Positions 30,355-53,564 of a stretch of 64,000 bases of DNA are shown piece by piece (the first letter of the stretch is position 1; each line of letters starts with the position of its first letter). The notes beneath the pieces are model-generated. The model was given only the letters and a program-made list of their open reading frames with translations, was not told where the DNA came from and did not search any database. This stretch comes from a virus. The translations under genes and the position numbers were made by a program. The stretch is from positions 1-64,000 of the IMG/VR virus record IMGVR_UViG_3300020438_000012. The stretch is one strand, 5' to 3'.

Positions 30355-32283
30355 ATGGCTGACGAAGAAAGCCTTTTCAGTAGGCTGACAAAGTTGTTCA
30401 GGAGCGGTCCAACCGTTCGAAGAAAAGTTAAGAACTACAAAGTACCACTGGCGAGTGAAGAGTTAGACGTTTTTGGCTATGGCTCAAACAACGTTTATAA
30501 TGCCGCCTTAAGTGCATACGGCGCGTTTGATAGAATGAGCCGATACAGCGATTTCTCTGAAATGGAAGCAACACCAGAAATCGCTTCAGCTCTTGACATT
30601 TACTCGGAAGAAACCGTTTCTGTAGATGACAAAGGCAGGTCACTGCACATTTATAGTGATAACAGAAAGATCAAAGAGCTTTTAGATAACCTGTTCTACG
30701 ATATTTTAAATGTTGAATTTAACCTATCAATGTGGGTCAGAAATCTTTGTAAGTACGGAGACTTTTTCTTATTCATCGATGTGAATCCGGAATTTGGAGT
30801 TATGAACGCTTATCCGATTCCAATTGCTGAAATCGAAAGAGAAGAAGGCTTTGATCCTTCAGATCCAGCTGCGGTTAGGTTTAGATGGATATCGAGAGGA
30901 AACCAAGTCCTTGAAAATTGGCAAATTATCCATTTCAGACTTCTCGGCAATGATGCGTTTCTACCTTACGGATCCAGTGTTTTAGAAAGCGCAAGAAGAA
31001 TCTGGCGACAACTAATCCTTATTGAAGACGCAATGCTTGTGTATCGAGTTATTCGTGCACCTGAACGCAGAGTATTCTATATCGATGTTGGAAACATTTC
31101 TCCTGAAGATATTCCAACGTTCATGAAACAGGCACAGGATAGTCTTAAGAGAAACAAGGTCGTTGACAAAAACACCGGCCGCGTCGATCTTAGATATAAC
31201 CCACTATCTGTCGACGAAGATTACTTCCTTCCAGTTCGAGGAACTGAATCTGGAACAAGGATTGATACTCTAGCCGGTGGCCAAAACACTGCTGCTATCG
31301 AAGATGTCGAGTACATTCAGAAGAAACTGTTTGCAGCTCTAAAGATTCCTCGTGCTTACCTAGGTTATGACGAAGATATTGGTTCAAAGGCAACTTTAGC
31401 ACAGGAAGATATTAGATTCTCCCGAGCCATTCAGAGAATTCAGAAGACAGTTCTTTCCGAACTAAACAAGCTTGCAATCATTCACCTATACGCTCATGGC
31501 TTTTCGAACGAAGATCTTCTTGATTTTGAACTTAAGCTTTCGAATCCTTCATCGATTGCTCAACAGCAGAAGCTTGAACTGATTAGAACTAAGTTTGAGA
31601 TTGCTGCAGCAGCCCCTGAAGGAATCGCTGATCGAGAGTGGGTTCGTAGAAACGTTATGGGTTTCAACACTTCTGAAATCGAGGCAATCGAAAAAGGAAG
31701 AGAAGAAGACAAAAAGAGAGACGTTGAACTAGAGGCCGTTATCGCAGAGCCTGAACCTGGCGCTGCTCCGTCTGAAGCACCTCCGGGAGACGAAGGCGGC
31801 GGAAAAGATGACGCAGAAGATCTGTTCGCTAGCGACAATCGGGACGGTAAACTCCTAACCTCTCAGCGGCCTGAAAGCGATGAAGATGACGAACTGGCGC
31901 TTTCAATTGATGACATTGATGCACCAATCAAAGCCCAACAGAAAATTAAGAATGCTTTTGGTGAGCCGCTAAAAATTAAGAGAAGATCTAAGACATCTGC
32001 TAGTACGGCTGAAATGCCAAACATGTCAAAGATGGTTGCTGTTGGAAAGAAAGCCAGGACCCAAGACACAATGTCCCGCCCGTTTGATCGTGATTCCTTG
32101 AAAGGATTTTCAAAGATTAAGCTCGGCGAAGGCGACGATCCGTTTGCTGATCTTGTCGACAGACATACGAAGCAACATGCAACTATGACAAAAGAGTTGA
32201 GATCAACGCTAACTTCGATGAATACGAATCTAAATATTGATGTAAGTTCTTTGCTAAAAGAATCGGGGAACAATGATGAGTAA
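30355..32283 (+). CDS. Portal protein (gp20-like)
   Basis: 642 residues. The body (about 40-440) follows the T4 gp20 pattern: an early SDFSEMEATPEIASALDIY helix, RRIWRQLILIEDAMLVYRVI, then RAPERRVFYIDVG and a KIPRAYLGYDE stretch. The C-terminal 180 residues are Glu/Asp/Ser/Pro-rich and likely flexible, longer than in many relatives. Twelve copies form the ring at the special vertex that starts prohead assembly, docks the terminase and later binds the neck. It directly follows the terminase gene and overlaps the next gene by 11 bases. Confidence 0.9.
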   Translation: MADEESLFSRLTKLFRSGPTVRRKVKNYKVPLASEELDVFGYGSNNVYNAALSAYGAFDRMSRYSDFSEMEATPEIASALDIYSEETVSVDDKGRSLHIYSDNRKIKELLDNLFYDILNVEFNLSMWVRNLCKYGDFFLFIDVNPEFGVMNAYPIPIAEIEREEGFDPSDPAAVRFRWISRGNQVLENWQIIHFRLLGNDAFLPYGSSVLESARRIWRQLILIEDAMLVYRVIRAPERRVFYIDVGNISPEDIPTFMKQAQDSLKRNKVVDKNTGRVDLRYNPLSVDEDYFLPVRGTESGTRIDTLAGGQNTAAIEDVEYIQKKLFAALKIPRAYLGYDEDIGSKATLAQEDIRFSRAIQRIQKTVLSELNKLAIIHLYAHGFSNEDLLDFELKLSNPSSIAQQQKLELIRTKFEIAAAAPEGIADREWVRRNVMGFNTSEIEAIEKGREEDKKRDVELEAVIAEPEPGAAPSEAPPGDEGGGKDDAEDLFASDNRDGKLLTSQRPESDEDDELALSIDDIDAPIKAQQKIKNAFGEPLKIKRRSKTSASTAEMPNMSKMVAVGKKARTQDTMSRPFDRDSLKGFSKIKLGEGDDPFADLVDRHTKQHATMTKELRSTLTSMNTNLNIDVSSLLKESGNNDE

Positions 32284-33100
32284 GCACAACAAGAAAAGAA
32301 ATGTTGGAATCGTGTACCAGCAAGTACTAAGAAGGGCTGCCGAAGCTGCTATTGATGGCGATAAGCCGCATGTAAACGAATGCGTAGAACTTCTAGGCCG
32401 CCATTTTAGACCAGGTACTGAACTGTATAAAGAGCATAAACTATTCAGCTCTATTCTGGAAACCGGTGGAGTTGATGAAAAAACTTCTGAGAAAGTTTTG
32501 TCTATCGTAAAGGAAGTTTCAAGATCTATTGACCAAAATGTAATTGAAAAACAGAAAGGTACATTTATCAACGAAGCAAATCGTGTTTTTGGGAAAGGTC
32601 AACTCTTTAATACACGCGTAAGCAACTACCGAGGACTTGCGACCGTTCAGTTGCTTCTTAACGAATGGAGAAACCCAGGTACTCTAACACCGACTCAGAC
32701 AGCGGAGTACGAAAGACGCCTTCAGGCATACATGATAACCGAAAAACAAGTCCCAACGCTTCAAAAAGAATCTAAGGTTGATGATTTAACCGTCGCAATG
32801 TTTAGAAAGAGATTTGATGATTCCTATGGATCAAAGCTCAGCAACCTTCAGAAAAACTTTGTAGCTGCCGTTGCTTTTAACAAACATGATGTAGTTGAGC
32901 AAATGATTTCAGAAGCAAAGGATAAGGCTATCGAGCTTCTAGATCGTAGACACTTAGGAGAAACTAACAAGCTTCTCTCGGAAAGATATGAAATTGTAAG
33001 AAAAAACATCATAGCATTTAATGGAAGCAGCGAAAGTACGGCATCTATGGCCATGACGCTGTTCAACCTAATCAAAGAGTTGGAGAGTGGCGATGTCTGA
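32273..33100 (+). CDS. Prohead-operon protein, helical, unknown
   Basis: 275 residues, almost entirely helical and charged, with a Lys-rich start (KHNKKRN). The start is ATG 32273 or 32276, both inside the portal gene. It sits between portal and prohead protease, where T4 has the small core genes 67 and 68. An assembly or core role is therefore likely, but it is larger than gp67/gp68 and I see no direct sequence match. It overlaps the protease gene by 8 bases. Confidence 0.6.
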   Translation: MMSKHNKKRNVGIVYQQVLRRAAEAAIDGDKPHVNECVELLGRHFRPGTELYKEHKLFSSILETGGVDEKTSEKVLSIVKEVSRSIDQNVIEKQKGTFINEANRVFGKGQLFNTRVSNYRGLATVQLLLNEWRNPGTLTPTQTAEYERRLQAYMITEKQVPTLQKESKVDDLTVAMFRKRFDDSYGSKLSNLQKNFVAAVAFNKHDVVEQMISEAKDKAIELLDRRHLGETNKLLSERYEIVRKNIIAFNGSSESTASMAMTLFNLIKELESGDV

Positions 33101-33698
33101 TATTAGACTGATTACATCATGGCAGCCTTTTGAGTATGACTCAAAGATGGTAGCAGAGTCTCGTTTAGAAAATGCCGGAAAAATTATGATGAAAGGTATT
33201 TTGCAAAAAGCAAATACACTAAATCAAAACGGCAGAATTTACCCTCTCCCTATTCTTGAAAGAGAAGTGAGAAACTATCAGAAGTTTATTGAGGAAAAAC
33301 GAGCGCTCGGCGAGTGTGACCATCCAGAAAGTTCTGTGGTAGAACTAAAAAATGCTTCCCACATAATCAGGGAAGCTTACATGGAAGGAGATGTTTGTTG
33401 GGGAACTGTTGAACTCTTAGATACACCATCTGGCAAAATATTACAAAGCCTTGTTGAGTCCGGGGTCACCCTTGGAATATCTTCCCGTGGAGTTGGTTCA
33501 ACTAGAAGGGAAGGCGACTATCAGGTCGTTCAAGATGACTTTCAGCTAATTTGCTGGGATTTTGTTTCAGAGCCTTCAACCCCCGGAGCATTTATGATGA
33601 GAGAAGGTGTTGAAGTAAGAAGATCCGAACTAAACAAGCTGTTTACGAAGTCTGATAGGCTCTTTAGAATATACAACGAAATTACTGAATGGAAGTGA
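33093..33698 (+). CDS. Prohead protease (gp21-like, U9)
   Basis: 201 residues from ATG 33093, preferred over GTG 33087 because GGAGAG (33082-33087) spaces correctly to the ATG. NQNGRIYP near 45 and GECDHPES (His77) match the T4 gp21/U9 family, followed by LGISSRGVGS (Ser130/131), the nucleophile region; His and Ser form the active site of this serine protease. Known enzymes of this family cut after (I/L)-x-E in scaffold, capsid and internal proteins during head maturation. This matters here because (I/L)-x-E sites recur in the capsid protein and in the tagged small proteins of this window. Confidence 0.9.
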   Translation: MSDIRLITSWQPFEYDSKMVAESRLENAGKIMMKGILQKANTLNQNGRIYPLPILEREVRNYQKFIEEKRALGECDHPESSVVELKNASHIIREAYMEGDVCWGTVELLDTPSGKILQSLVESGVTLGISSRGVGSTRREGDYQVVQDDFQLICWDFVSEPSTPGAFMMREGVEVRRSELNKLFTKSDRLFRIYNEITEWK

Positions 33699-33708: not shown

Positions 33709-34167
33709 ATGGCAAAGATTTCTAAGACAGCGCTAAAAGGACTAATCAAGGAATGCCTTGTGGAAATCCTGCAAGAAGGATTGGCTACACAATTAATGGC
33801 TTCAGGTCCAACGCCAAGAAAGAAAAGCCGCCGCAAGCTATCTTCGATTAATTCTGCATCCCCAGGCATGAACGAGCGTTCTGATCCTAGAAATCGCAGA
33901 AACTTCAATCCAACACTCGATACCCCGGTTGCCAGTCTATCTGAAAGAATTTCTCCAACCATCGCGCGCGTATCTAGTGACCCTTCAATTCAGGCATTAC
34001 TTGAAGATACAGCCGCAACAACGTTAAAAAATCAACACAGCGCAGAAAATCAGAGAGGGCCTCAAGCTCAAACCGATGTTCCTCTAGAATCCCTGGGTGT
34101 CAATGTTCGCAACTGGGCAGCCATGGCTTTTTCTGAAGAGAAGAACGATTCGTCTAAACTGGGATAA
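33709..34167 (+). CDS. Tagged prohead-operon protein, candidate internal head protein
   Basis: 152 residues. Residues 4-23 (ISKTALKGLIKECLVEILQE) align without gaps with the tag of the array at 50.6-54.7 kb, including I-K-E and L-Q-E sites for the prohead protease. The rest is polar and disordered-looking: a basic KKSRRK patch near 40, then Ser/Pro/Asn-rich sequence. It follows the protease gene with GAGGAAAAT before the ATG. I infer a core or internal head protein that is cut during maturation. No family recognised. Confidence 0.6.
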   Translation: MAKISKTALKGLIKECLVEILQEGLATQLMASGPTPRKKSRRKLSSINSASPGMNERSDPRNRRNFNPTLDTPVASLSERISPTIARVSSDPSIQALLEDTAATTLKNQHSAENQRGPQAQTDVPLESLGVNVRNWAAMAFSEEKNDSSKLG

Positions 34168-34171
34168 CGGC

Positions 34172-34179
34172 ATACTTAT
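34172..34179 (+). promoter_or_regulatory. Late-promoter motif ATACTTAT
   Basis: A perfect ATACTTAT in the 31-base gap 34168-34198, followed by GTGGAGG as ribosome-binding site and the ATG at 34199. Confidence 0.6.
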
Positions 34180-34198
34180 CACATGTGGAGGTTGACGC

Positions 34199-34465
34199 AT
34201 GAAAAAAATGTCGGTCACAAGACTTCGTAAATTTATTTTAGAAGAAGCTGCAAAAGTAAACGAGACACTCGAACAAGGTAAAGCAGATGTTGAATCTGTT
34301 AATGCGGATGAAACAGACGCAGAAGATCTTGCTAATACTTTAGAGAAAGATTTAGATCACATGAAAGCTTTAAAGATTCACGAAACAAGAATCCGAAGAA
34401 AGCTTGAAAAGATCTCAGAGGCAAAGAAAACTGTCCGCTCTAGAATTATGAAGAGGCTAAAGTAA
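34199..34465 (+). CDS. Small tagged helical protein, candidate prohead core
   Basis: 88 residues, highly charged and helical throughout (long Glu/Lys/Ala heptad-like runs). The first 22 residues (MSVTRLRKFILEEAAKVNE at 4-22) resemble the shared tag of the array at 50.6-54.7 kb, with an I-L-E protease-type site. Small size, charge and place in the head operon resemble T4 gp67/gp68-type core proteins. It has its own late-promoter motif and a strong GGAGG site. The stop abuts the next ATG. Confidence 0.6.
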   Translation: MKKMSVTRLRKFILEEAAKVNETLEQGKADVESVNADETDAEDLANTLEKDLDHMKALKIHETRIRRKLEKISEAKKTVRSRIMKRLK

Positions 34466-34960
34466 ATGCCAAGCGTGAAGCAGACAACAGTTGACCCAGC
34501 TGCATCAACAAGAGGCATGGGATCTAGCGATACCGAAGCTTTGACTGAGGCATTTCCTGCTTCACCAATTCATGCTGGTGATATTACTAGAAATTCTCTA
34601 GAGGTCCAATATAACGACCTTGCACTCCAGGGTGTTGTAAGAAACGGTCTTGGAATTTCGTCATACGATCGAGATTTTACAGGGGCAGACTCCGGAGTTG
34701 CGTTTCCAGACGGCGATGTTGCAACTGGTGCCGCAGGACTACCGGCGTCTCAATACGTTCCAAACCCAGCTTCACCTGGACCTGGAAGTCAAAACCCAAC
34801 GGATTTACCAGCGCCACCTGCTGGATTTGGCGAAACACCGAATGGGGATACATACGGTTCAGGCACCGGCGCACTTACAAGGCCAGCTGATACTTCAAAA
34901 ACCATTGCTCGCCACACACTTGGTTCTTATGGGTTAGGAACTTCAGAACCAACAAAGTAG
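34466..34960 (+). CDS. Gly/Pro-rich head-operon protein, unknown
   Basis: 164 residues with a low-complexity C-terminal half (Pro, Gly, Ala, Thr) and little predicted structure. A short segment (NSLEVQYNDLALQGVVRNGL, about 44-63) may be helical. It starts directly after the previous stop and ends 7 bases before the next gene. It lies between protease and scaffold, so a head-assembly or minor head role is possible. I do not recognise it. Confidence 0.55.
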   Translation: MPSVKQTTVDPAASTRGMGSSDTEALTEAFPASPIHAGDITRNSLEVQYNDLALQGVVRNGLGISSYDRDFTGADSGVAFPDGDVATGAAGLPASQYVPNPASPGPGSQNPTDLPAPPAGFGETPNGDTYGSGTGALTRPADTSKTIARHTLGSYGLGTSEPTK

Positions 34961-34967: not shown

Positions 34968-35561
34968 ATGCCTAAAATAAAAAAGTACGGCCTTAACCGA
35001 GAAAACCACTCGCGCTTTCCGCAGATGGATACGCGAAACGATCTTGGTTATGGCCGTACTAAGTTAAAATTTAGTAAACCTAGACCTTCGGCGAGTTCCT
35101 ACCCCTATAGCATGAACGATGAACAAGAGAAAGAATCTGAAAATTTGCAAGATGTAGAGGTCGAGGACGTCCCTAGAAAAGCGATGACAAAAGTTCGTCG
35201 ACACGTAAGGGTTAACGATTTTGGTGCTGCAGCAGGAACAGACCCTTTTTATTATGCTGGTGCAGCAACTAAAATTAGCGAACAGCAATCTGCAAATAGC
35301 AAAGGTGGAATTGGCGTAACTCTTCCAGCCGGCATAGGATCTTCGACCTCTGGGTTTAGGTCAATTACTAGACCTACTGGAACTAAGAGAGGGTTTTCCT
35401 CTGCACCGTATACGATCGATAATTCTGAAACCAAAAATCGACTCGTAGATTTTGTTGATGACGACGATAAAAGTCTAAGATTATTTGTCAGAACAATCTT
35501 GGCAAAAGAAAAAGAGCGAAACTCAAAACAGAATAATCGGTTTCAAAAGAATACTTACTAA
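34968..35561 (+). CDS. Basic head-operon protein, unknown
   Basis: 197 residues. The N-terminus is Lys/Arg-rich (KIKKYGLNRENHSRF), the middle holds an acidic patch (EKESENLQDVEVEDV) and the end is basic again. Ser and Gly are abundant and little regular structure is evident. Its last codons contain the late-promoter motif that serves the scaffold gene. Position between protease and scaffold suggests a head-assembly function, but no family is recognised. Confidence 0.55.
   Translation: MPKIKKYGLNRENHSRFPQMDTRNDLGYGRTKLKFSKPRPSASSYPYSMNDEQEKESENLQDVEVEDVPRKAMTKVRRHVRVNDFGAAAGTDPFYYAGAATKISEQQSANSKGGIGVTLPAGIGSSTSGFRSITRPTGTKRGFSSAPYTIDNSETKNRLVDFVDDDDKSLRLFVRTILAKEKERNSKQNNRFQKNTY
35551..35558 (+). 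promoter_or_regulatory. Late-promoter motif ATACTTAC
   Basis: ATACTTAC, one mismatch from the consensus, overlapping the last codons of the upstream gene and 20 bases before the scaffold ATG at 35579. AGAGGA lies between as ribosome-binding site. It would drive scaffold and major capsid protein. Confidence 0.5.
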
Positions 35562-35578: not shown

Positions 35579-37093
35579 ATGAAAAATTCAATGTACGAAC
35601 AAGCAATTCTGGATGCTCAAAACCTTCGAAAGATGGCTGAAGAGTCCGCAAAAAACAAGCTCATCGAAGCTGTAATGCCACAACTTCGAGAAATTATTGA
35701 GAACGATGTAATTTCTCCAGTAGTGAGCGAATCTATGGAGATCGAAGAAGATCACTGTATGAACGATGCGGAAGAGAAGGAAAATGACGATCTTCTCCTT
35801 GATGAAAACGAGGATGATGAAGACGACATGAATGAAGCCGACATGATGGCGCTGGCGGCATTGGTTGAGGCAACGTCTCACCAAAAAAAGGGTAACCTTA
35901 ACGAAAGACTTTCAATTGTTAGGAAAAAGCTGGCAAGAATGCTGGTGATTTCTGAATCAATAGATCCTAAGCAACTTCAGGCAGACCATGCGTTTGTTTT
36001 TATGAAGAAGCTGAATGCTCTCATTAAAGAAACTATGCAAATCAAAAATGAGGCAATACTTATAAAAGAATCCGGAGACCACCGGTTCTACAATAAATCT
36101 GATAAAACTCTACAGGAGATAAAAGAAATGGCACGTCGTATGAACAGGGGAGTCTTTGCTAGGCTCTTTGAAGCAGATAAGCTTAATGAGCTTGATGCTA
36201 CCCTCGTGCTCGAGCCTTCCGAGGACGAAGCTGATGAGGTCGAGGAGCTACTAGGCGACCTGGACATCGATGTTGAGCTCGGTGGTGCAGACGAGGATGA
36301 GGATGAGGATGATGCAGGCGACATGGACGCTGACGAGGAAGAGGACGATGAAGAAATCGAACTTGACCTTGGCGAAGCTGACATGGACGAAATGGATCAT
36401 GGCAAAAAGGAAGGGTACCACGAGATGGACGAGATGGACGAGATGGATGAGGACATGGACGAGGTCTATGAAATCGACGAGTCTACTCTTCGCCGTGCAC
36501 TTCGAGCCCTTCGAGAAGGTGATGCTGCCGAAAAGGCAGATCAATTTGGTGGAGCTGAAGTCGAAGGCGACGTAATTGTCGACCTTGACGAAGATGATCT
36601 ACTACATGCACTTAATGATGTACTTGGCGACGCTCCGGTTCCGAGACCACCACTTGGTGAGTCACGCCGCAGCCGCCGAAAGTCTAGACGTTCGCGAGTA
36701 AATGAGAGTCGCAAGAATCGTACTCTTATCTCCGAGCTTTCACGGGCCAAAAAGGCCAACGGCGAATTGAAGAAGCATCTCCAAGAGATGAACCTTTTTA
36801 ACGCCAAGCTACTCTACGCAAACAAGCTGATGCAGAATAAGAGCCTCAGTACGCGTCAGCAGAGAGCTGTTGTCGAGGCACTCGATAGTGCCAAGACACT
36901 TAGGGAAGCAAAGCTTCTCTTCCAGAGCCTGTCAAGCGGAGTCAAGAAGGGCAAGGCCCTTTCTGAGTCAACTAGCAGGGTCCGCGGTTCTTCGTCAAAA
37001 TCAACGCCACGTGCTAGCGCTAAGCCGCTACAAGAAGGTGCTGGGCAGACGGATCGTTGGGCAATCTTGGCTGGCATTCCAGGCAAGAAGTAA
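35579..37093 (+). CDS. Prohead scaffolding core protein (gp22-like)
   Basis: 504 residues. After a helical N-terminus comes a very acidic centre (about 215-305): runs of Asp/Glu with Met, including a tandem MDE repeat at about 281-290. A basic patch (SRRSRRKSRRSR, near 361-372) and a helical C-terminus follow. Acidic, helical scaffolds placed just before the major capsid gene are the gp22 pattern; they form the core on which the shell assembles and are then degraded by the prohead protease. It is longer than T4 gp22 (269). A 29-base gap leads to the capsid gene. Confidence 0.8.
   Translation: MKNSMYEQAILDAQNLRKMAEESAKNKLIEAVMPQLREIIENDVISPVVSESMEIEEDHCMNDAEEKENDDLLLDENEDDEDDMNEADMMALAALVEATSHQKKGNLNERLSIVRKKLARMLVISESIDPKQLQADHAFVFMKKLNALIKETMQIKNEAILIKESGDHRFYNKSDKTLQEIKEMARRMNRGVFARLFEADKLNELDATLVLEPSEDEADEVEELLGDLDIDVELGGADEDEDEDDAGDMDADEEEDDEEIELDLGEADMDEMDHGKKEGYHEMDEMDEMDEDMDEVYEIDESTLRRALRALREGDAAEKADQFGGAEVEGDVIVDLDEDDLLHALNDVLGDAPVPRPPLGESRRSRRKSRRSRVNESRKNRTLISELSRAKKANGELKKHLQEMNLFNAKLLYANKLMQNKSLSTRQQRAVVEALDSAKTLREAKLLFQSLSSGVKKGKALSESTSRVRGSSSKSTPRASAKPLQEGAGQTDRWAILAGIPGKK
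36250..36480 (+). repeat. Acidic low-complexity and 9-base tandem repeat region
   Basis: GAG/GAC/GAT-rich DNA inside the scaffold gene encoding Asp/Glu/Met runs. Around 36421-36450 the nonamer GAGATGGAC is repeated in tandem (MDE MDE MDE). The repeat keeps the frame, so copy number can vary without disrupting the protein. Confidence 0.7.
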
Positions 37094-37122: not shown

Positions 37123-39030
37123 ATGTCACGTAAGTTTAGTCTTAATACGCTCACCGAGGGTATCCGTCAAAGGCACCTTGGTCAGCAAAACTCCCGTCTC
37201 CTCGAGAAGTGGTCACGTACCGGTCTTCTTCGTGGACTCGACGGGCAGAAGAGAGAAAACATGTCGATGCTCTTGGAGAATCAGGCCGCCCAGGCCCTCC
37301 GTGAGTCATCCACAATCGGTGCAGGCGGCGGAGCCGGCACTGCTTCAGGCGATCTCGGTGGTTTCACCAACATCGCATTCCCAATCGTTCGTAGAGTATT
37401 CGGCGGCCTAGTTGCCAACGAGCTCGTTTCAATCCAGCCGATGAGCCTGCCTTCTGGCCTGCTTTTCTACTTGGATTACACCTATGGTTCCGTGAATGGT
37501 TCAGCTCAGTCTGATAATGATGTGTATACGTCTGGTTCATCGATCTACGGAAACCCTTCAGGCAAGTCACTTCAAACCGGCGCAGCGCAGGCTGGCGGTA
37601 TGTACGACCTCGCTGGTTCAGGTTACTCTAGAGTTTATCAGGAAGCAGGTGCTATTAACCTAATCACTTCAGGTGCTTTTAAGGGTACCTCGGCGATGGT
37701 TGCTACCGCTGTTCTTGACGCTACCGGCTCCGATGGCGCCCTGATTCAGTTTGACCCAGCCCTTACAACTCTCATCGAGGGCGTAAAGGGTGCAGGTGCA
37801 ACAGCCGACAGTTACTCGGCCGTTGTTGTCAAGGCTAACACGATCCAAGCGTCGTCAAATCAGCCTGTTGACTTTACTGCGATTAAGGAAATTGGTCTAT
37901 TCGCCCCGGGTGATACAACTCCATACGGCCCAGTTAGTTCTGACCTCCAAGGTCAAGGCAAGGGACTGATTAACGTTCGTCGCCTTAACCAGCTAGTTAG
38001 AGTTTCTCCTTCCGGTGCAACTGGTGCTTCTGTTACGGGGATCACACCAATTTCGACTATCACTGATCCTACTGGTGATGCTGATGTCGGCGTTCTGTTT
38101 ATCGTCTCAGGTACACAGACTGCAGCTACCGCGGCAACTTTAAAGCTTCAGTACGTCCAGGATCCAAACTTCACGTCATCTAGTGGCGAGACGCTTGTTA
38201 TCCCAACGTTCGAGTCTAACTTTGGCGCAACTCCTTCTCCTGAGATCCCAGAGATCGACATCAAGATTGAGTCTATTCCGGTTGTCGCTGACACCCGTAA
38301 GTTGCGTGCGAAGTGGTCGCCAGAGCTTGCTCAGGACCTCAACGCCTACCACAGCCTTGACGCTGAGGTTGAGCTTACCCAGATTCTTTCGGCTCAGATC
38401 GCTCTTGAGATCGACCGTGAGATCCTTAACGACTTGTTGCAGGGCGCCGCTGGTGCTAACTTCTTCTGGTCACGTTCGCCTGGTAACTTCGTTGACAAGA
38501 CCACCGGCGTTGAAGCTTTCCGTTCTTCTACTCTTGCGTCTGGTCCGGCATTCACCGGTACGGTTCGTGAGTGGTATGAGACTCTTATCGAGACGATCAT
38601 CGACGTTGGTAATACCATCCACCGTAAGACTCTCCGCGGCGCGGCGAACTTCATCGTGGTTGGCCCAGACGTTGCAACGATCCTCGAGGCTTCTGTCTAC
38701 TACCGTCCGTCTCTGAGCATCGACGGTGATGGTCAGGTTGCTACTCCATTCAGCCTAGGTGCTGAAAAGGTTGGCACTCTTTCCAATCGTTTCACAGTCT
38801 ACAAGGATCCATACTTCCCACGGAACAAGATTCTCGTCGGATACAAGGGTGGTTCCTACCTCGAGACTGGTTACGTCTACGCTCCGTACGTGCCGTTGAT
38901 CATCACGCCTACAATCTTTGCCCCAGAGGACTTCACCCCGCGTAAGGGTGTTATGACTCGCTACGGCAAGAAGCTTGTTCGTGCCGACTTCTACGGTACC
39001 GTCACCTGCCTTAAGATGAACATTATTTAA
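37123..39030 (+). CDS. Major capsid protein (gp23-like)
   Basis: 635 residues from ATG 37123, which follows a strong AGGAGAG (37110-37116); a TTG at 37057 is in frame but lies in the scaffold gene. As in T4 gp23, the N-terminus is helical and ends in a prohead-protease site, ALRE-S after residue 61 (T4 cuts after 65), followed by a Gly-rich linker and IAFPIVRRVFGGLVANELVS, matching the gp23 start of the HK97-like fold. The mature protein would have 574 residues. Codons are strongly C-ending compared with neighbours, as expected for the most abundant protein. A terminator follows. Confidence 0.93.
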   Translation: MSRKFSLNTLTEGIRQRHLGQQNSRLLEKWSRTGLLRGLDGQKRENMSMLLENQAAQALRESSTIGAGGGAGTASGDLGGFTNIAFPIVRRVFGGLVANELVSIQPMSLPSGLLFYLDYTYGSVNGSAQSDNDVYTSGSSIYGNPSGKSLQTGAAQAGGMYDLAGSGYSRVYQEAGAINLITSGAFKGTSAMVATAVLDATGSDGALIQFDPALTTLIEGVKGAGATADSYSAVVVKANTIQASSNQPVDFTAIKEIGLFAPGDTTPYGPVSSDLQGQGKGLINVRRLNQLVRVSPSGATGASVTGITPISTITDPTGDADVGVLFIVSGTQTAATAATLKLQYVQDPNFTSSSGETLVIPTFESNFGATPSPEIPEIDIKIESIPVVADTRKLRAKWSPELAQDLNAYHSLDAEVELTQILSAQIALEIDREILNDLLQGAAGANFFWSRSPGNFVDKTTGVEAFRSSTLASGPAFTGTVREWYETLIETIIDVGNTIHRKTLRGAANFIVVGPDVATILEASVYYRPSLSIDGDGQVATPFSLGAEKVGTLSNRFTVYKDPYFPRNKILVGYKGGSYLETGYVYAPYVPLIITPTIFAPEDFTPRKGVMTRYGKKLVRADFYGTVTCLKMNII

Positions 39031-39177: not shown

Positions 39178-39666
39178 ATGCCAAAAGTAACAATTGATAA
39201 CAGTAGAGGTCTCGTTCAAGAGACGGGGACCGGCGTGGTAATTAAAGCATCCGGGGCAATCGGTCAGAAATATACCGCAGTCACATCACTCATCTCTGGC
39301 GGTGCCAACGATGTAGAAATGACACTAACACAACCTGCAAACTCTGTTCTTTGTGATGTAGGGTTTATTTTGACAACTGCAATTGCAGGTTCTAGTGGTA
39401 ACTCAAACTTTAAGGTAGGAACTGCCGACGATGGCGCACAAATTGTTGCAGCAACTGCTTTGATGAGTTCAGCAACGGCTGCGGCAATTGGTTCCGGCAT
39501 TACACTTTCTGGTCTTAAGAGTGAAGGAGCAGCAGCCCTTGCCATTGTAGCCGATGCTGCAGTCTACACGGCAACAGAGCGAACACTTTTTCTTCGTCTT
39601 GAAAATTCTGCAGCAATTACTGCCGGTGCTGGAAAAGCATTCATTAGTTACATGATCTTGCCGTAG
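39178..39666 (+). CDS. Decoration-like virion protein, copy 1
   Basis: 162 residues, beta-rich and Ala/Thr/Ser-rich, with the N-terminus MPKVTIDNSRGLVQETGTG. The next gene encodes a clear paralog of the same length. Small abundant proteins encoded right after the major capsid gene are often capsid decoration proteins, which bind the shell after expansion; that role is inferred. It has its own late-promoter motif and a strong GGAGAAAG site, so high expression is likely. I cannot exclude a head-fibre or neck role. Confidence 0.65.
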   Translation: MPKVTIDNSRGLVQETGTGVVIKASGAIGQKYTAVTSLISGGANDVEMTLTQPANSVLCDVGFILTTAIAGSSGNSNFKVGTADDGAQIVAATALMSSATAAAIGSGITLSGLKSEGAAALAIVADAAVYTATERTLFLRLENSAAITAGAGKAFISYMILP

Positions 39667-39692: not shown

Positions 39693-40184
39693 ATGCCAAA
39701 AGTTGTAATTACAAATTCTAAAGGTTTGGTTCAAGAGACCGGAACTGGCTTCGAGCCAAACACGTCGGGTCTAGCAAGAGTTTTTTGGACTGCCACTACG
39801 ACCTTAAACGCTGTAGGGGCTAATGATGTAGAAATGACACTAACACAGCCTGCAAACACGGTCATTACTGATATGGGCTGGGTCTTTGATACGAATCAAA
39901 TTGCAGGTACATCGGGAAATAGCAAAATTAAATTCGGAACTGCTGACGACGGTGCTGAGCTAGTTGCTCTTACCGACATCATGAGCAGTGCAACTGCAAC
40001 TGCTGCCGGATCTGGTATCTCGCTTTCAGGTCTTCGAAGCGAAGGAGATGCGGCTCTTGTCGTAGTTAACAGTGCACCGATGTACACGGCAACTGCGAGA
40101 ACTGTTTTTATTCGCATTGAAAATTCAGCTGCAGTTACAGCAGGGGAAGGTCGTGCGTTTATAGTCTGCGAGAATCTTGGATAA
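39693..40184 (+). CDS. Decoration-like virion protein, copy 2
   Basis: 163 residues, a paralog of the gene just upstream along its whole length: MPKVVITNSKGLVQETGTG at the start, then NDVEMTLTQPAN, FGTADDGAELVA, SGISLSGLRSEGDAAL and RTVFIRIENSAAVTAGEG. The most different parts are around residues 20-40 and the C-terminus. A 26-base gap with AAAGGAGAAAAAT separates the copies. Inferred decoration or head-surface protein; two copies may fill different capsid positions or vary the outer surface. Confidence 0.65.
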   Translation: MPKVVITNSKGLVQETGTGFEPNTSGLARVFWTATTTLNAVGANDVEMTLTQPANTVITDMGWVFDTNQIAGTSGNSKIKFGTADDGAELVALTDIMSSATATAAGSGISLSGLRSEGDAALVVVNSAPMYTATARTVFIRIENSAAVTAGEGRAFIVCENLG

Positions 40185-43815: not shown

Positions 43816-46800
43816 ATGGCGGAACAGACATTTAGATCACCAGGCTTCTTTGAGCAGGAGATCGACTTATCCGGTCGAACGCAAGCTGTTGAAGGCGTCC
43901 CGGCAGGAATTATTGGAACATCAAAGCGTGGACCAGCTTTTGTACCTGTTACAATCGGTACTTTTGCCGATTTTCAGCAAACATTCGGTGGACTAGATCC
44001 GAAGCGTTTTGCTCCTTATGCGGTTGAGCAATGGCTTAAGAATAGAACCGCTGTAACTTTTACAAGGGTCTTAGGCGCCGGCGCAAATAGAACAGCCGAA
44101 GATATTGCTCGAACGCGCCAGTATGGCGTTGCAAAGGCTGCAGGGTTCATCATCAGTGGATCTCAGAACGCAGGGGCTTCCTATGCACGTTCACAGGGTT
44201 CTGTAAAGTTTCTCTGTGCTGTGCACGATGCCGTTGCTCAAGAAACGCAAGGTTTCCCTGTCCTTACTGACAATGCGTCGATTGCTAGTGCAGATGCTGC
44301 AAACCTAGTAAGAGGAATGGTTCTTCTAGCTTCCGGAACTTCGATGTTTGTTACGGGAACTGAGTTAGGCCTTAGTTCTATGACTCCAGCCTTGATTGCC
44401 GGAGATACGCTGGCTGACGACGCAACTGCTGATGCATCGGGAGACTTTAGAATTATTCTCTCATCGTCTGCCACTAACTTTACAAACGATGCAGGCAAAA
44501 AGGGTGGAAACACTCAAGCAAAAATCTTTGCAGCATCTTTTGTTCCACAAAGTGAAAACTACATCGGAAAAGTTCTTAACACTGATCCACTAAAATTCCA
44601 GCAAGAGCAGCATCTATTATATGCCGACTTCCTTGTTGAAGACGAACTTGCAACTACAAAGTCAAAAGCGGTAGCAATCGTTTCAGGTTCGGCAACAACC
44701 GCCGCGCAGAGCGCAGCGGGCGGAACAACGGGTAAGTTTGAAGACTTCTTTGGAAGATTCGATGCTAGGTACACAACACCAACCACGACAAACGTAACAT
44801 CTCAGCCTTTCGGAAAAAAGGTTTATGATCTATTCAGGTTTGAAACGCTGGATGATGGTGAGTTTGCAAATAATCGATTTAAGATTTCGATTGCAAACAT
44901 TGTTGCTTCTACAGATCCTTCCAACAAGTTTGGAAAGTTTGATGTTCAGGTAAGAGCATTTAGTGACACGGATCTAGCACCTCAGATTTTAGAAGTATTC
45001 CCAGAGTGTAATCTTGACCCTACGAGTGATCGATATATCGCCGCGGTAGTCGGTGACAAGAAAGTTGTCTTTGATCATGATGCTCAAATTGCGGAAGAGC
45101 GCAGGCTTGTTATTACAGGCAAATATGCGAACGTTTCGAGATTCATAAGAGTGCTTCCGGAAACAGGCGTTCAAGATGGAGACGTTCCTAACGATGCACT
45201 TCCTTTCGGTTTCAGAGGCATTCCGGTTGTTAAGACATCAGATACAATGACCGACACTAAGGCCGCCCTGGCTTTTGATGGGCGGACCCTAGGCGTAGAA
45301 TCAGCATTCAGACTGCACGGCGTTGTTTCGGAGACTAAGGCAACTGCCGCGGCCAACGGTCTAACAGGCTCAATTGTTCCTCCGCTACCTCTTCGCTACA
45401 AAGTCACTCGCGGAGCTACTCTTGGAACTGGATACGAAGGCAATCCTGGCGCCGATGAAAGAACCGACGGTAGATTCTATTGGGGTGTCAAGTTTGAAAA
45501 AATGGCACACACAGAATCGCTAGGAACCCCGGTTCTAAATCCCAATGTTTCTTCAACACCTAATCCTCTAGTTGCAGCATATACCAAGTTAACTGGAATC
45601 TCTAAGCTTGATATGAGCGTTACGGGATCCGGCGCCGATGCGTTTAACAATAATGCTTTCACTCTTTCTCGAGTGGCTGTCGGCCCTGATACGGATAACG
45701 GTACCCCTGCAACTCCGCCTACAAAGTTTGCTGAGATTACTGGATCTGCAAAAGCACACATGCTTTCATCGGTCTACGTAAGAAATGGTACTCTTAAGTC
45801 TAACGTTGTAGACTCAGTTACGCAACAATACGTTGTTGATACTTCGCTAAACTCTAACCGAGTTACTTTGGCGACTTTGCTTGCGTCCTCTTCGGTTGTG
45901 TTTAATAGGTTTACTCCTTTTGCTAAGTTTACAATTCCATTCCACGGTGGCACAGACGGATTCAACTTGCTTGATCCCGATGCCGGCTTTGGCAATGATC
46001 GATCTACGTCACAAGATGCAGGTGGTTTAGCAGGATCGACAGCAGATATCGGCCTAAGAGCAACTTCTTACATTGCTGATGCTCCTGGGGAAAGCACTAA
46101 CGCCATGGGAATTGGTTTTAACAACAACTCAATTTCTTCCTTTAGGACTGCTGCAGAAATTAACACAGACCCGTTTGCGGTTAGGATTAATCTTCTGGCG
46201 ATTCCTGGAATTAAGGATGCGGCAGTTTCAGACTTTGCAAGTGAGCGCATGCGAGATTACAGCCAAGGGTTGTACGTTATGGATATTCCTGAATTTGGAA
46301 TGAAAGACGGAACTACATCAACTCGGCTGTTTGATGACAGCACTCTTCGCGCGGACGTTTTAGAAACTGCTGAGCAATTTGCCGGAAGAGCGCTTGACAA
46401 CAGTTTCGTTACATCATATTTCCCAAGCGTTATTATTGAAGATAGTCAAAACAAGCGTCGAGTCAAGGTTCCGCCTTCGATTGCTGCGCTTGCTGCTTTT
46501 GGTTTTAATGATCGTGTTGCTTATCCATGGTTTGCGCCGGCAGGGTTTAACAGAGGCGCTCTTGAGTTTGTCAAGAATACATCTACTAGACTTACGCAAG
46601 CCGATAGAGATACCCTGTATGAAAACAGGATCAATCCGATTGCAAACTTCCCAACAGGTGGATTTGTTATCTTCGGGCAGAAGACACTTCAGCAGACCTC
46701 CTCTGCACTCGACCGTGTAAATGTTAGAAGAATGTTGCTTGAAGTGAAGAGAATTATTTCCCAAGTTGCAAGAAACCTCTTGTTCGAACAGAATAACGCA

Positions 46801-47025
46801 ACTACGAGGAATCGCTTTGTCTCTCAGACAACGCCGCTTCTTGCGCTTATTCAAGCTCAGCAGGGAATTGAATCTTTTCAAGTTGTCATGGACAATACAA
46901 ATAATACCGAGCTCGACAGAGAGCAAAATAGGCTTAACGGCAGAATTGTTGTGGTCCCAACAAGAGCAATCGAGTTTGTTGCTATTGACTTCATCATAAC
47001 AAATGCCGGAGTATCCTTCGAATGA
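43816..47025 (+). CDS. Tail sheath protein, copy 1 (gp18-like)
   Basis: 1069 residues, far longer than T4 gp18 (659). The start (TFRSPGFFEQEIDLSGRT) and end (SALDRVNVRRMLLEVKRIIS, FVAIDFIITNAG) are the conserved sheath parts forming the inner, contracting core; a long central region (about 100-700) is extra and probably makes outer domains. Sheath subunits surround the tube and contract to drive it into the cell. The next gene encodes a paralog. Codon use is A/T-ending compared with copy 2. Confidence 0.9.
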   Translation: MAEQTFRSPGFFEQEIDLSGRTQAVEGVPAGIIGTSKRGPAFVPVTIGTFADFQQTFGGLDPKRFAPYAVEQWLKNRTAVTFTRVLGAGANRTAEDIARTRQYGVAKAAGFIISGSQNAGASYARSQGSVKFLCAVHDAVAQETQGFPVLTDNASIASADAANLVRGMVLLASGTSMFVTGTELGLSSMTPALIAGDTLADDATADASGDFRIILSSSATNFTNDAGKKGGNTQAKIFAASFVPQSENYIGKVLNTDPLKFQQEQHLLYADFLVEDELATTKSKAVAIVSGSATTAAQSAAGGTTGKFEDFFGRFDARYTTPTTTNVTSQPFGKKVYDLFRFETLDDGEFANNRFKISIANIVASTDPSNKFGKFDVQVRAFSDTDLAPQILEVFPECNLDPTSDRYIAAVVGDKKVVFDHDAQIAEERRLVITGKYANVSRFIRVLPETGVQDGDVPNDALPFGFRGIPVVKTSDTMTDTKAALAFDGRTLGVESAFRLHGVVSETKATAAANGLTGSIVPPLPLRYKVTRGATLGTGYEGNPGADERTDGRFYWGVKFEKMAHTESLGTPVLNPNVSSTPNPLVAAYTKLTGISKLDMSVTGSGADAFNNNAFTLSRVAVGPDTDNGTPATPPTKFAEITGSAKAHMLSSVYVRNGTLKSNVVDSVTQQYVVDTSLNSNRVTLATLLASSSVVFNRFTPFAKFTIPFHGGTDGFNLLDPDAGFGNDRSTSQDAGGLAGSTADIGLRATSYIADAPGESTNAMGIGFNNNSISSFRTAAEINTDPFAVRINLLAIPGIKDAAVSDFASERMRDYSQGLYVMDIPEFGMKDGTTSTRLFDDSTLRADVLETAEQFAGRALDNSFVTSYFPSVIIEDSQNKRRVKVPPSIAALAAFGFNDRVAYPWFAPAGFNRGALEFVKNTSTRLTQADRDTLYENRINPIANFPTGGFVIFGQKTLQQTSSALDRVNVRRMLLEVKRIISQVARNLLFEQNNATTRNRFVSQTTPLLALIQAQQGIESFQVVMDNTNNTELDREQNRLNGRIVVVPTRAIEFVAIDFIITNAGVSFE

Positions 47026-47059: not shown

Positions 47060-50000
47060 ATGGCTGAGCTGACTTTTAGAAGCCCCGGCGTTAGCACGAG
47101 GGAGATCGACCTCAGCGGTCCTCAACCGACACAACCTCAGGGAACACCTGCAGCGGTCGTTGGTACCGCAGAGAAAGGTCCGGCATTCGTTCCTGTGACC
47201 TTTGCATCCTATCGGGATTTTGCGTCAAAATTTGGCAACACCGATGGTGAAAAGTTTGGACCAATTGCAATTGCGCAGTGGTTTGCAAACAGGCAAGCCG
47301 GAACTTACTTAAGGGTTCTCGGCGCCGGCGATGGAAAAACAAGAGCCTCAGACGGATCTGTTACGAGAGCAGGCTTTGTCGTTGGCAGCCGGCTTCCTCA
47401 AGCCAGTGGATTGCTGGGAGATAATGTTCATGCAAACACAGGTGGCGTTGGTGAAGGTAGAACATTTTTTCTTGGCTGCTTCATGTCTGAATCAGCCGGA
47501 AGCACGATTTTTTCTGAAGCGGGATTAACTGGTAATAAGGCACACTCTATTCTCCGTGGCGTTATTCTGGCTCCTTCCGGAGTTGTTCCATTCCTTTCTT
47601 CAACACTCGAAACCGATAACGCTCCAAACGCCGCGGCTGGAGCTGCTGGTATTCCAAACTCGGCAGGTGGATCAGATGCCGGAGCATTGATTGGAACTGT
47701 TAATAAAGTTTCTCAAGAGTTTGTTCTTCTCCTTAATGGTCTTAAGCAAACCGAAAGCGAAGGAAAGAATATTATTACAGCTTCTTTCGATCCGCAAGCT
47801 TCCAATTATTTCCCTAATGTCCTTAACACTGATCCGCTTCTTATCGAGTCTCAAGGTCATTTACTTTACCGTCATTATGACGTCTACAGTTCATATGCTC
47901 AAATTACAGGAAGCGGATATGCCGGAAGCCTAGGCGCTCCCGTTCTCGGTGGAAATTTAGAGCAGGCAGCCTTTATTACAACAGGGTCACTTGCTAAGAA
48001 TACCCAGTCTGCAGAAGTTCCAAACTTCGAAGCATTCAAAGATCGCTTCCAACATGCATTCTCTCCGTTCGTTGTTTCACAGAAATTTGGTGGTTCACCT
48101 ACAAACCTCTTTAAGGTCCACTGCTTAGATGCTGGCTTGTATCCAAATAAGCGGTTTAAGGTAAGTGTTGAAAACATTCAGAAGTCCAACAATCCAGACG
48201 TTAAGTTTGGAAAGTTTGACGTTGTTGTGCGAGAATTTGGCGATGATGACAGAAACCTAAGAGTTCTCGAAGCTTTCCGTGGCCTCTCTATTGATCCAAA
48301 TTCAGAGAGATATGTCGCACGCGTCATTGGCGATCTAAACACTTTCTACGACTTTGATCAGAGACCCGGTAGCCAGAAGGTTGTTGTTGAGGGTAAGTTC
48401 CCTAATTCGTCAAACCTTATTCGAGTTCAGATGAACTCTGTGGTTGATGACGGAGAAATTGACCAAGAAGCTCTCCCGGTTGGCTTCAGAGGATTAAACC
48501 ACCTCGTCACATCAGGAACTACCGCTGCTGGAAACGTTATGTTAGCGTCAACCGGTTCAACGGTTGGAGCTGTCGTTCATGTTTCGGCTTCATTGTTTAA
48601 GGGAACACCTGTTGAGCCACCTGTTCCATTCCGCAGAAACGTTGCAGTTGGAACCGGTACTGCTAAGAGATCAGATGCTCAGCTTTACTGGGGCGCTCAA
48701 TTTGAGCCTCTGGACAGCTTGACACTGCCCAACAAGAATAACGCACCTCAAATCCAGCGTTCTCCGATGGATGCATACACAAATTACTTTGCAAACTACC
48801 ATGTTGGTTCAAGAAATCCATCTGTCGGTGGTAACGAAGGAACGGCAAACGACGGCGGTGTTGTTCTAGACGCAGATGCGTTTAACAACAACATCTTCTC
48901 CCTAGAGAGGGTTCAGGTCGTAACAAGTTCAACCGACGTTGTTGATTCCAAGGAATGGCAGGCAGCCGTTTACAGAAGAGACGAAGCACTGGCTTCGAGC
49001 CTTACTAAGAATGATGGAGTCACTCAACCTGGAAGATTCTTGAACATTGATAAAGACTTTGGTGATATTGCATCTAAGCAATTCTTTAAGTTCTCATTCC
49101 CGGTTCAAGGTGGGTTTGACGGAGTAAACATCTTCGACGATGACAAGTCAAACCTTCTTGATGTTGCTATCAAGCGAGAGGTTGCCGACTCTAATCAGGG
49201 CGGCATCAACGGACCAACCGTACAGTCTTACAGAAAGGCTATAGACATTCTAGAAGAAAAGTCAGATGTCGACATTCAGTTGCTTGCAATTCCAGGTATC
49301 CGTCAGTCGCAGGTCACAGACTATGCCATTGACGCCGTTGAGAACAGGTTCGATGCTCTCTACATTATGGACATCCCTGTTAGCGATGCCGAAAACAATG
49401 AAATTACCGGGTCGGCCGGCCTGCCAAATGTAACAAACACTGTTACGACATTCAAGGGTCGCCCACTCGATAGCAGCTTTGCCGCAGCGTACTTCCCCGA
49501 CGTCGTCGTCACTGATCCAACTACCAACACTAACGTGCAAGTGCCGCCAAGTGTTGCTGTTCTCGGTGCCTTCGGTCTCAACGATGCCGTGGCTTTCCCT
49601 TGGTTCGCGCCTGCCGGGTTTGCCCGCGGTGCTCTTGCAGCCTCTGAGGTCGCAGTTAAGACGAACAGATCAAACCTCGATGCTCTATACGACGCTAGGA
49701 TTAATCCGATTACGGTATTCCCAGGTCAGGGTGGCCCAACGATCTTTGGACAGAAAACGTTGCAGGCCGCAGAGTCTGCGCTTGATCGTGTTAATGTTCG
49801 TCGCCTCCTTATCGAGATCAGACGCCAGGTCCGGCAGGTCGCGAACACCTTTATCTTCGAGCCGAACAGGGAGACGACGCTTGCTCGATTCTCTGGCGCG
49901 GTAACTCCGATCCTTAATAGAATTCAGCAGCAGCAAGGTGTTGATAGGTTCAGAGTGCAGATTGATACGACAACAACGACCCAGGCGGACGTTGAGAACA

Positions 50001-50095
50001 ACACGGTGAGAGGAAAGATTTTCCTCCAGCCTACTCGCTCCGTCGAGTTCATCTCTCTTGACTTCGTCGTTTCGAACGCCGGTGCAGAGATCTAA
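47060..50095 (+). CDS. Tail sheath protein, copy 2 (gp18-like)
   Basis: 1011 residues, a paralog of the gene upstream: TFRSPGVSTREIDLSGPQ at the start, RGPAFVPVT-like EKGPAFVPVT near 40, and SALDRVNVRRLLIEIRRQVR plus FISLDFVVSNAG at the end. The central parts diverge. The last third (about 49400-50095) switches to C-ending codons, like the tube and major capsid genes, which suggests high expression. Both copies keep the polymerising core, so both could enter the sheath; a mixed or layered sheath is inferred. A GGAG site precedes ATG 47060. Confidence 0.9.
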   Translation: MAELTFRSPGVSTREIDLSGPQPTQPQGTPAAVVGTAEKGPAFVPVTFASYRDFASKFGNTDGEKFGPIAIAQWFANRQAGTYLRVLGAGDGKTRASDGSVTRAGFVVGSRLPQASGLLGDNVHANTGGVGEGRTFFLGCFMSESAGSTIFSEAGLTGNKAHSILRGVILAPSGVVPFLSSTLETDNAPNAAAGAAGIPNSAGGSDAGALIGTVNKVSQEFVLLLNGLKQTESEGKNIITASFDPQASNYFPNVLNTDPLLIESQGHLLYRHYDVYSSYAQITGSGYAGSLGAPVLGGNLEQAAFITTGSLAKNTQSAEVPNFEAFKDRFQHAFSPFVVSQKFGGSPTNLFKVHCLDAGLYPNKRFKVSVENIQKSNNPDVKFGKFDVVVREFGDDDRNLRVLEAFRGLSIDPNSERYVARVIGDLNTFYDFDQRPGSQKVVVEGKFPNSSNLIRVQMNSVVDDGEIDQEALPVGFRGLNHLVTSGTTAAGNVMLASTGSTVGAVVHVSASLFKGTPVEPPVPFRRNVAVGTGTAKRSDAQLYWGAQFEPLDSLTLPNKNNAPQIQRSPMDAYTNYFANYHVGSRNPSVGGNEGTANDGGVVLDADAFNNNIFSLERVQVVTSSTDVVDSKEWQAAVYRRDEALASSLTKNDGVTQPGRFLNIDKDFGDIASKQFFKFSFPVQGGFDGVNIFDDDKSNLLDVAIKREVADSNQGGINGPTVQSYRKAIDILEEKSDVDIQLLAIPGIRQSQVTDYAIDAVENRFDALYIMDIPVSDAENNEITGSAGLPNVTNTVTTFKGRPLDSSFAAAYFPDVVVTDPTTNTNVQVPPSVAVLGAFGLNDAVAFPWFAPAGFARGALAASEVAVKTNRSNLDALYDARINPITVFPGQGGPTIFGQKTLQAAESALDRVNVRRLLIEIRRQVRQVANTFIFEPNRETTLARFSGAVTPILNRIQQQQGVDRFRVQIDTTTTTQADVENNTVRGKIFLQPTRSVEFISLDFVVSNAGAEI

Positions 50096-50639: not shown

Positions 50640-50930
50640 ATGAAAATCACAAAACGACAACTTAGAAGAATCATCAAGGAGGCAATGCACTCCGAGTATG
50701 AGGATCTCTTCGACAACTCCCCGCCTCGACGCAAGGAGTCAATGCACTCCGACCCTCGCGAAGAAGCGCGAGATATTCTGCGACACTACGATATGATAGC
50801 GTCAGATGTTGGCGAGATCTATGTTGATGATTTAATCGATCACTGGGTTGGTCAAGGAAACCCTTCGCCAGGCCCTGGTGTTCGGGCGGAATTGATCAAG
50901 CTAAATTACGGAAACGAATATTTTAGGTGA
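50640..50930 (+). CDS. Tagged array protein 1, candidate internal head protein
   Basis: 96 residues from ATG 50640; the in-frame start at 50598 lies in the tube gene and would precede the tag. Tag MKITKRQLRRIIKEA with an I-K-E site at 12-14. The body is acidic and His/Asp-rich with a HSD/HSE repeat (MHSEY, MHSDP) and a helix EEARDILRHYDMIASDV. It lies 17 bases after the tube gene. No known domain. Packaging into the head through the tag is inferred. Confidence 0.7.
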   Translation: MKITKRQLRRIIKEAMHSEYEDLFDNSPPRRKESMHSDPREEARDILRHYDMIASDVGEIYVDDLIDHWVGQGNPSPGPGVRAELIKLNYGNEYFR

Positions 50931-50939
50931 TGGTTTAAA

Positions 50940-51206
50940 ATGCGAATTACAAAGCGACAGCTTAAAACAATCATTAAGGAAGAGAGGTTCCGTCTTTTGA
51001 ACGAGGCCTCGCTTCAGCGTTCCAAGGCCCAGGTAGAAAATGCTTTGGGCAGCTTGCTCGTTGATTACATGGAAGAGCACTTGGACATGAGCGGCTCAAA
51101 TAGAGAAGACGCTTTGCGTCGTGCAAAGGAAGACCTCAAAAGCTTCGTTCGTGGCGCAATTGCAAACGCAGTAGACTTTGAACGAGATCCGCAGTCATAC
51201 ACTTGA
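50940..51206 (+). CDS. Tagged array protein 2, candidate internal head protein
   Basis: 88 residues. Tag MRITKRQLKTIIKEERFRLLNE, with possible protease sites I-K-E (12-14) and L-N-E (20-22). The body is a helical, charged polypeptide (KAQVENALGSLLVDYMEEHL, then DALRRAKEDLKSFVRGAI) of about 65 residues, enough for a small helical bundle. Nine bases separate it from the preceding gene. No homolog recognised. Confidence 0.7.
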   Translation: MRITKRQLKTIIKEERFRLLNEASLQRSKAQVENALGSLLVDYMEEHLDMSGSNREDALRRAKEDLKSFVRGAIANAVDFERDPQSYT

Positions 51207-51224
51207 TACACTTAGGGAAATACA

Positions 51225-51488
51225 ATGAAAATTACAAAGAGACAACTTAGAAGAATCATCAAGGAAGAGAGAACGCGCATTCTCAGTGAGAACATGCATG
51301 ACGCTCAGGGTTTCTACGAGAAGAAGCTCACAATTCTCAACACAGCACTTTCGGCCCTAGAGGCAGCCAAGGATCACGAGAGAACAAGTGCAATGGGCGA
51401 AGATCCTGATCTAAACCAGCTTGTTAACATGGTCATTGGTTACATCGATGCCGTTGGTTCCATGGTTCAAATGGGAAGGCGCAGATAA
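51225..51488 (+). CDS. Tagged array protein 3, candidate internal head protein
   Basis: 87 residues. Tag MKITKRQLRRIIKEERTRILSE, with I-K-E and L-S-E sites. The body is helical (GFYEKKLTILNTALSALEAA, then LVNMVIGYIDAVGSMVQM), with hydrophobic faces that could pack as a two-helix hairpin or associate with membrane. The leader contains ATACACTTGATACACTTAG (51198-51214), a doubled ATACACTT that only loosely resembles the late motif. Confidence 0.7.
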   Translation: MKITKRQLRRIIKEERTRILSENMHDAQGFYEKKLTILNTALSALEAAKDHERTSAMGEDPDLNQLVNMVIGYIDAVGSMVQMGRRR

Positions 51489-51489
51489 A

Positions 51490-51828: not shown

Positions 51829-51830
51829 CC

Positions 51831-52091: not shown

Positions 52092-52107
52092 AAGGATTAC
52101 CAAGCAT

Positions 52108-52524: not shown

Positions 52525-52525
52525 C

Positions 52526-53058: not shown

Positions 53059-53130
53059 AGTTTCGCGACGAAGCTCGTCAGCGTATCATGAACAATTTAG
53101 AGCACGCTTCAAACCAAAAAGGAAAGTAAA

Positions 53131-53556: not shown

Positions 53557-53564
53557 GAAGTTCT

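Follow-up and report, generated by a model that had tools for sequence, protein, structure and literature searches.

In phage T4, the prohead protease gp21 cuts after the motif L/I-x-E, and mutagenesis of the leader of internal protein IPIII assigned residues 4 and 7 to targeting and residues 8 and 10 to processing (PMC9026906). Internal proteins of T4 enter the host by injection and act as inhibitors of type IV restriction enzymes, each being specific to one nuclease variant (PMC12373910). In the giant phages phiKZ, 201phi2-1, and SPN3US, head propeptides are cut after xxE by a gp21-related protease, and paralogues have identical N-termini (PMC5694885). Here we analyzed a short N-terminal leader, the tag, in an uncultured T4-like phage. 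Our window, the 64 kb at the start of a 102,473-base IMG/VR virus record, holds a T4-type head operon and, directly 3′ of the tail tube protein gene, an array of 11 small tagged genes (50640-54659). The array leader is KITKRQLRRIIKEE, and the N-termini of the array genes follow the pattern M[KR]I[TA][KR]xQL[RK]xI[IV]xE, with a two-residue extension in gene 10. Two more tagged genes lie outside the window and the main array, at 68439 and 68654 of the record (L009 4439-4654 and 4654-4887).

A leader shared by two head-operon proteins and the array

An earlier note, made from the sequence alone, had proposed that two proteins of the head operon, encoded at 33709 and 34199 and here called G1 and G2, begin with the array tag, and that this links the tag to head assembly independently of the array. 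Both genes lie where the note had placed them, between the genes for the prohead protease and the scaffold candidate; the same interval also holds the genes at 34466 and 34968. All 13 tagged genes of the record (11 in the array, plus 68439 and 68654) were used to build a position-specific scoring matrix (PSSM). G1 scored 18.8 bits and G2 14.7 bits, ranking directly under the tagged genes, while the next-best gene of the genome reached 6.5 bits. Among 30,153 internal 14-mers of the genome, one reached the G1/G2 level. Separately, we observed that the protein at 97471-97938 contains, from residue 94 on, a sequence that scores as tag-like (KMTKRQLYHIAKNA) but is internal to the protein rather than N-terminal.

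Plain residue shuffles reached these scores with P = 1e-4 for G1 and 4.5e-4 for G2. Shuffles that left each position in its residue class (hydrophobic, basic, acidic, or polar) gave P ~0.054 for each protein, a borderline result, and a basic amphipathic helix is not separable using the single sequences of G1 and G2 alone. Since the single-sequence shuffles were borderline, we used a family-level test instead, in which every 14-column window of 20 gene families from ~110 related loci was compared with the tag profile by ungapped profile-profile alignment. The G1 window ranked first (score 23.5) and the G2 window second (22.0) of 6208 windows. The 6005 windows outside the G1 and G2 families had a best score of 12.3 (mean -11.2, standard deviation 6.7). 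The consensus N-termini in the related loci are KLTRSQLKSLIKEC for G1 and KLTPALLRKIVLEE for G2. Alignment of the tag profile to G1 with hhalign gave P = 3e-6 in a register identical to that of the profile scan. At the family level, the evidence that G1, G2, and the array share a leader is decisive; by the criterion that the earlier note had set, the two single sequences by themselves are borderline.

The note had aligned residues 4-23 of G1 with the tag. This alignment is sensible past the core because a second [LI]xE, ending at residues 18-26 in 46% of tags compared with 9.6% in the control (body), lines up with ILQE23 of G1. The closeness of G2 to the tag, also proposed earlier, is borne out by its PSSM score and its place in the family scan. 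By BLAST in the fetched loci, G1 is present in 111 and G2 in 100 of 116 related loci, a few of which are the same contig counted twice. G1 and G2 are core head-operon genes and carry the leader, which connects the tag with head assembly without recourse to the array, as had been claimed. A seed search for close G2 relatives found one, compared with the 100 found by BLAST in the fetched loci. Searches of deposited phages with the G1 protein and the tag peptide returned nothing useful, and the tag strings were not found printed in the literature searched.

We also considered a DNA-level origin of the likeness. This is disfavored, as synonymous codons vary freely, with Leu8 using all six codons, indicating that selection acts on the protein. 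A T4-late-type promoter box (TATAAATA) occurs once in the window, distant from the genes considered here.

The head operon contains the following genes:

28736: large terminase, by position and sequence
30355: portal (PF07230, E 1e-75)
32273-33100, plus strand: candidate further core protein of 275 residues, in the position of T4 gp67/gp68
33087-33698, plus strand: prohead protease of the gp21 type (Peptidase_S77; PF03420, E 1.2e-25; phrog_207 head maturation protease, E 1e-48); likely start, the ATG at 33093
33709-34167, plus strand: G1, a conserved head-operon core protein of 152 residues that starts MAKISKTALKGLIKECLVEILQEG; tag, residues 3-16
34199-34465, plus strand: G2, a conserved head-operon protein of 88 residues that starts MKKMSVTRLRKFILEEAAK; tag, residues 3-16; coiled body
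34466-34960, plus strand: conserved head-operon protein, tag-free
34968-35561, plus strand: conserved head-operon protein, tag-free
35579-37093, plus strand: scaffold candidate, acidic and in the gp22 position, named by position and composition
37123-39030, plus strand: major capsid protein gp23 (PF07068, E 6e-75), with L-[RK]-E in the column that aligns with the T4 gp23 cleavage site

The scaffold candidate matched no Pfam family above the cut-off. The gene at 32273-33100 is conserved between portal and protease, and its product, with a twofold enrichment in [LI]xE, is likely another cleaved core protein. Directly after the capsid protein gene, 39178-39666 and 39693-40184 encode adjacent paralogues of ~162 residues that are possibly decoration proteins. 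Further along, 43816-47025 and 47060-50095 are adjacent, very large, and mutually related, and look like paralogous tail sheath proteins.

The array consists of these genes, all on the plus strand:

50640-50930: tagged array gene 1, MKITKRQLRRIIKEAM
50940-51206: tagged array gene 2, with the leader
51225-51488: tagged array gene 3, with the leader
51490-51828: tagged array gene 4, with the leader; start at ATG 51490, not TTG 51421
51831-52091: tagged array gene 5, with the leader
52108-52524: tagged array gene 6, with the leader
52526-52795: tagged array gene 7, with the leader
52792-53058: tagged array gene 8, with the leader; GTG start
53131-53556: tagged array gene 9, with the leader; body paralogous to that of gene 10
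53565-54455: tagged array gene 10, the longest cargo, with the leader; body paralogous to that of gene 9
54465-54659: tagged array gene 11, with the leader

The bodies behind the leader are diverse. Those of 169 tagged proteins fell into 118 clusters, of which 93 were singletons. Scans of 144 tagged proteins against Pfam, PHROGs, and PADLOC yielded almost no family matches, and a search of IMG/VR found no relatives of the longest cargo (53571).

Anatomy of the leader and probable specificity of the protease

To describe the leader, we gathered 167 tagged proteins, using a seed restricted to residues 1-8. The label is a strongly basic leader of ~14 residues common to proteins with unrelated bodies. 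Information peaks at L8 (4.13 bits) and E14 (4.03 bits), followed by Q7, I12, and I11; position 13, which corresponds to P2, is loose (2.23 bits), and conservation collapses after residue 15. An [LI]xE ends at E14 in 91% of these proteins, and an [LIV]xE ends at residues 13-15 in 166 of the 167. Hydrophobic residues occupy positions -6, -3, and -2 from the conserved Glu.

This spacing coincides with that of T4. The T4 IPIII leader is MKTYQEFIAE, and gp24 starts MAKINELLRE (both read from NC_000866). Residues 4, 7, 8, and 10 of IPIII are at -6, -3, -2, and 0 from the cut, where the tag has L8, I11, I12, and E14. Written out, Y4..F7 I8 x E10 of IPIII equals L8..I11 I12 x E14 of the tag, L9..L12 I13 x E15 of G1, and I4..L7 L8 x E10 of gp24. 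Within the first 20 residues, the spaced pattern occurs in 6 of 55 T4 proteins from two regions, including gp24, IPII, IPIII, and gp2. Here, 13 of 109 genes of the record have the pattern, and 11 of these are tagged genes or G1/G2. The spaced pattern, including an [LIV]xE, is also matched by the first 16 residues of the proteins encoded at 87466-88746 (L010 from 3966; MSKKNLDRLVESVIFE, 426 residues) and at 89298 (MNTRKAKLLKRLISE, 170 residues), which makes both candidates for additional head-targeted proteins.

In G1, residues 13-23 contain serial [LI]xE sites (IKE, LVE, and LQE) that form the ladder LIKE-CLVE-ILxE-G, and 90 of 91 G1 homologues have at least three [LIV]xE within the first 45 residues. 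An AF2 model of G1 consists of a confident N-terminal helix (residues 6-31), a flexible linker, and C-terminal helices. Such a predicted fold fits a protein in which a leader precedes a body that is set free. A fold search with the model found no viral relative, the expected outcome since the protein is mostly flexible. We set aside a weak match of PF25734 to residues 4-23 of G1, which was below the cut-off (E 0.03).

In the alignment column where gp23 of T4 is cleaved, the major capsid protein homologues of this clade have L-x-E in 73 of 74 sequences and L-[RK]-E in 72 of 74. The tags have the same preference, with K or R at P2 in 134 of 167. Relative to shuffles, [LI]xE was enriched 3.6-fold in G1, 2.3-fold in the protease, 2.2-fold in the 32273 protein, 2.1-fold in the major capsid protein, and 1.7-fold in the scaffold candidate, where [LI][KR]E was enriched 2.4-fold. 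There was no enrichment in the portal (0.97) or in the tag-free proteins at 34466 (1.1) and 34968 (0.94). An S77 protease was present in 20 of 24 long tag-bearing records, six of the 24 having originally been found via the protease and hence not being independent. In the remaining four, a T4-type capsid protein is missing as well, and one of these records ends within the portal gene; all four are probably fragments.

Distribution in relatives and in a second clade

Tag-profile searches of the relatives detected 39, 40, and 30 tagged genes in three of them (G003, G013, and G012, respectively). No tagged genes were detected by these searches in others, such as the contigs of L062, L082, L084, L088, L104, L112, and L119. 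These are among the long contigs that show no array and keep a labelled G1. Thus, it is the array that varies, and the leader is a constant feature of the head operon.

When we scanned viral contigs for the exact DNA pattern of the tag, matches were at saturation, making their number a lower bound. The same pattern was nearly absent from 85,000 prokaryote genomes, with eight stretches in four metagenome-assembled genomes. Two of the four were searched further and also contained the S77 protease and G1, indicating that phage sequence lies inside them.

In a second T4-like clade, whose records were found via the tag alone, the equivalent core gene, located shortly behind the protease gene, begins with a related leader of the IKEC type. 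This leader, M[KN]KxELKxx[IL]KPL[VI]K[EQ]CI.E[VC][LI].E[ED]G, aligned to G1 with hhalign at P 3e-6. Within the head operon of G037 and G040, a gene with the leader stands between those for the protease and G1.

Other leaders recur in these phages. Beside tagged genes in relatives we observed a second type, MKLLREYIRSLLIE (L128 2287-4000, L132 42-1731, and L136 365-1006), which is similar to the start of the prohead protease of the second clade itself (MGKKLLREYYEL...LLTE). A third leader that recurs has the pattern M..MK.IMERW...L.E and is found on second-clade proteins, some of them encoded beside the protease (L278, L284, L285, L252, L202, and L261).

A candidate head-targeting propeptide and its known counterparts

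We consider it likely that the tag is a prohead-targeting propeptide, removed by the protease and resembling the T4 capsid targeting sequence (CTS), that is common to the core proteins G1 and G2 and to a large set of cargo. The sequences point this way through the shared label, its terminal cleavage motif, the matching capsid motif, the gp21-type protease, the unrelated bodies, and the presence of the label in relatives and in a second clade. The ~14-residue basic amphipathic helix would dock its protein on the growing prohead core via the hydrophobic residues at -6, -3, and -2, and the gp21-type protease would cut after [LI]xE, setting the body free within the head. G1 and G2 would be prohead core proteins bearing the signal. 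The 11 array genes and the two outside it would encode cargo with a copied label, packaged alongside the DNA and, by analogy with the T4 internal proteins, probably injected into the host. The array would then probably be a set of head-packaged, host-injected proteins.

One alternative is that the likeness is that of any basic N-terminal amphipathic helix, with G1 and G2 unrelated to the array tag. Pattern-preserving shuffles do reach the single-protein scores of G1 and G2 in 5% of cases, but the two family profiles outrank all other windows by a wide gap, the rest of the genome has no gene with a similar score, and the Glu in common does not vary, nor does the spacing; we regard this explanation as very unlikely. 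Somewhat more credible, although still improbable, is that the tag docks on the scaffold or portal and is uncut, or cut by another protease, the tagged proteins being structural or assembly helpers that are not injected. Cleavage and injection are steps that we infer, and almost none of the bodies match known effector or counter-defence families, which leaves room for such helpers. However, an invariant P1 Glu, I or L at P3, a free P2, and conservation ending right after are what a gp21-type site predicts, and the highly diverse, mostly singleton bodies are unlike structural proteins. We give least credence to a signal with no role in the virion, such as host-membrane docking, RNA or DNA binding, or regulated turnover, that is common to core and accessory proteins by coincidence. 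Basic amphipathic helices often bind membranes or nucleic acid, and T4 prohead assembly begins at the membrane. Such a signal would leave the [LI]xE ending unexplained, and the long tag-bearing records either carry the gp21-type protease or lack a T4-type capsid protein and are probably fragments.

Several points weigh against a CTS-like propeptide. In these uncultured phages, the presence of the tagged proteins in virions and their cleavage are conclusions that we draw from sequence, and the scaffold is a candidate named by position and composition. Although the tag was seeded on residues 1-8, the source regions of the 167 tags were chosen by a profile that included E14. The T4 leader has 10 residues and the tag 14, and the tag is strongly basic and different in sequence; past the spacing pattern and [LI]xE, no homology to the T4 CTS is detectable in these very short sequences. 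G1 matches no viral fold, and its homology to T4 gp67, suggested by LIKE...LxEG, lacked significance (hhalign P 0.27, probability 0.2%). Finally, the KECLVEILxEG stretch of G1 is more conserved than any tag. This extreme conservation argues that G1 functions beyond addressing, perhaps as the core component where the label docks.

Only a few T4-type injected internal proteins are known so far. As the label is readable from sequence, tied to core proteins, and nearly absent in prokaryotes, a targeting propeptide of this kind would allow injected proteins to be listed directly from metagenomes. The tagged proteins would form a pool of candidate host-takeover and counter-defence proteins, and a new one, since there are nearly no family matches among the 144 scanned. 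It would also mean that, beyond the T-even phages, signals for head packaging behave in evolution as a label that can be transferred. We see an even chance that uncultured T4-like phages each possess an exchangeable arsenal, with up to ~40 small proteins encoded per genome, addressed to the head by a core-protein leader, cut loose, and injected with the DNA. The label would then be a search key to hundreds of as yet undescribed injected effectors.

Among known systems, the head propeptides of giant phages share with the tag a gp21-related cleavage after xxE and N-termini common to paralogues (PMC5694885). They differ in often exceeding 100 residues and in their S/A-x-E motif, and arrays comprising dozens of small genes with an identical tag are not described in these papers. 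T4 gp67, gp68, and gp24 are likewise small head-operon proteins bearing [LI]xE sites, gp24 with the spacing of the tag; unlike gp67 and gp68, G1 and G2 are positioned after the protease gene, not before it. The T4 CTS of IPI, IPII, and IPIII is similar in being a short N-terminal leader on unrelated small proteins, with hydrophobic residues at -6, -3, and -2, an [LI]xE at its end that suits the prohead protease, and a gp21-type (S77) protease encoded in the same phage. The T4 targeting residues at -6 and -3 are aromatic, whereas those of the tag are aliphatic. Moreover, up to ~40 tagged genes occur per record here; T4 has three, and reports on related phages give 10 or more. Here the leader is also found on two conserved proteins of the core operon.
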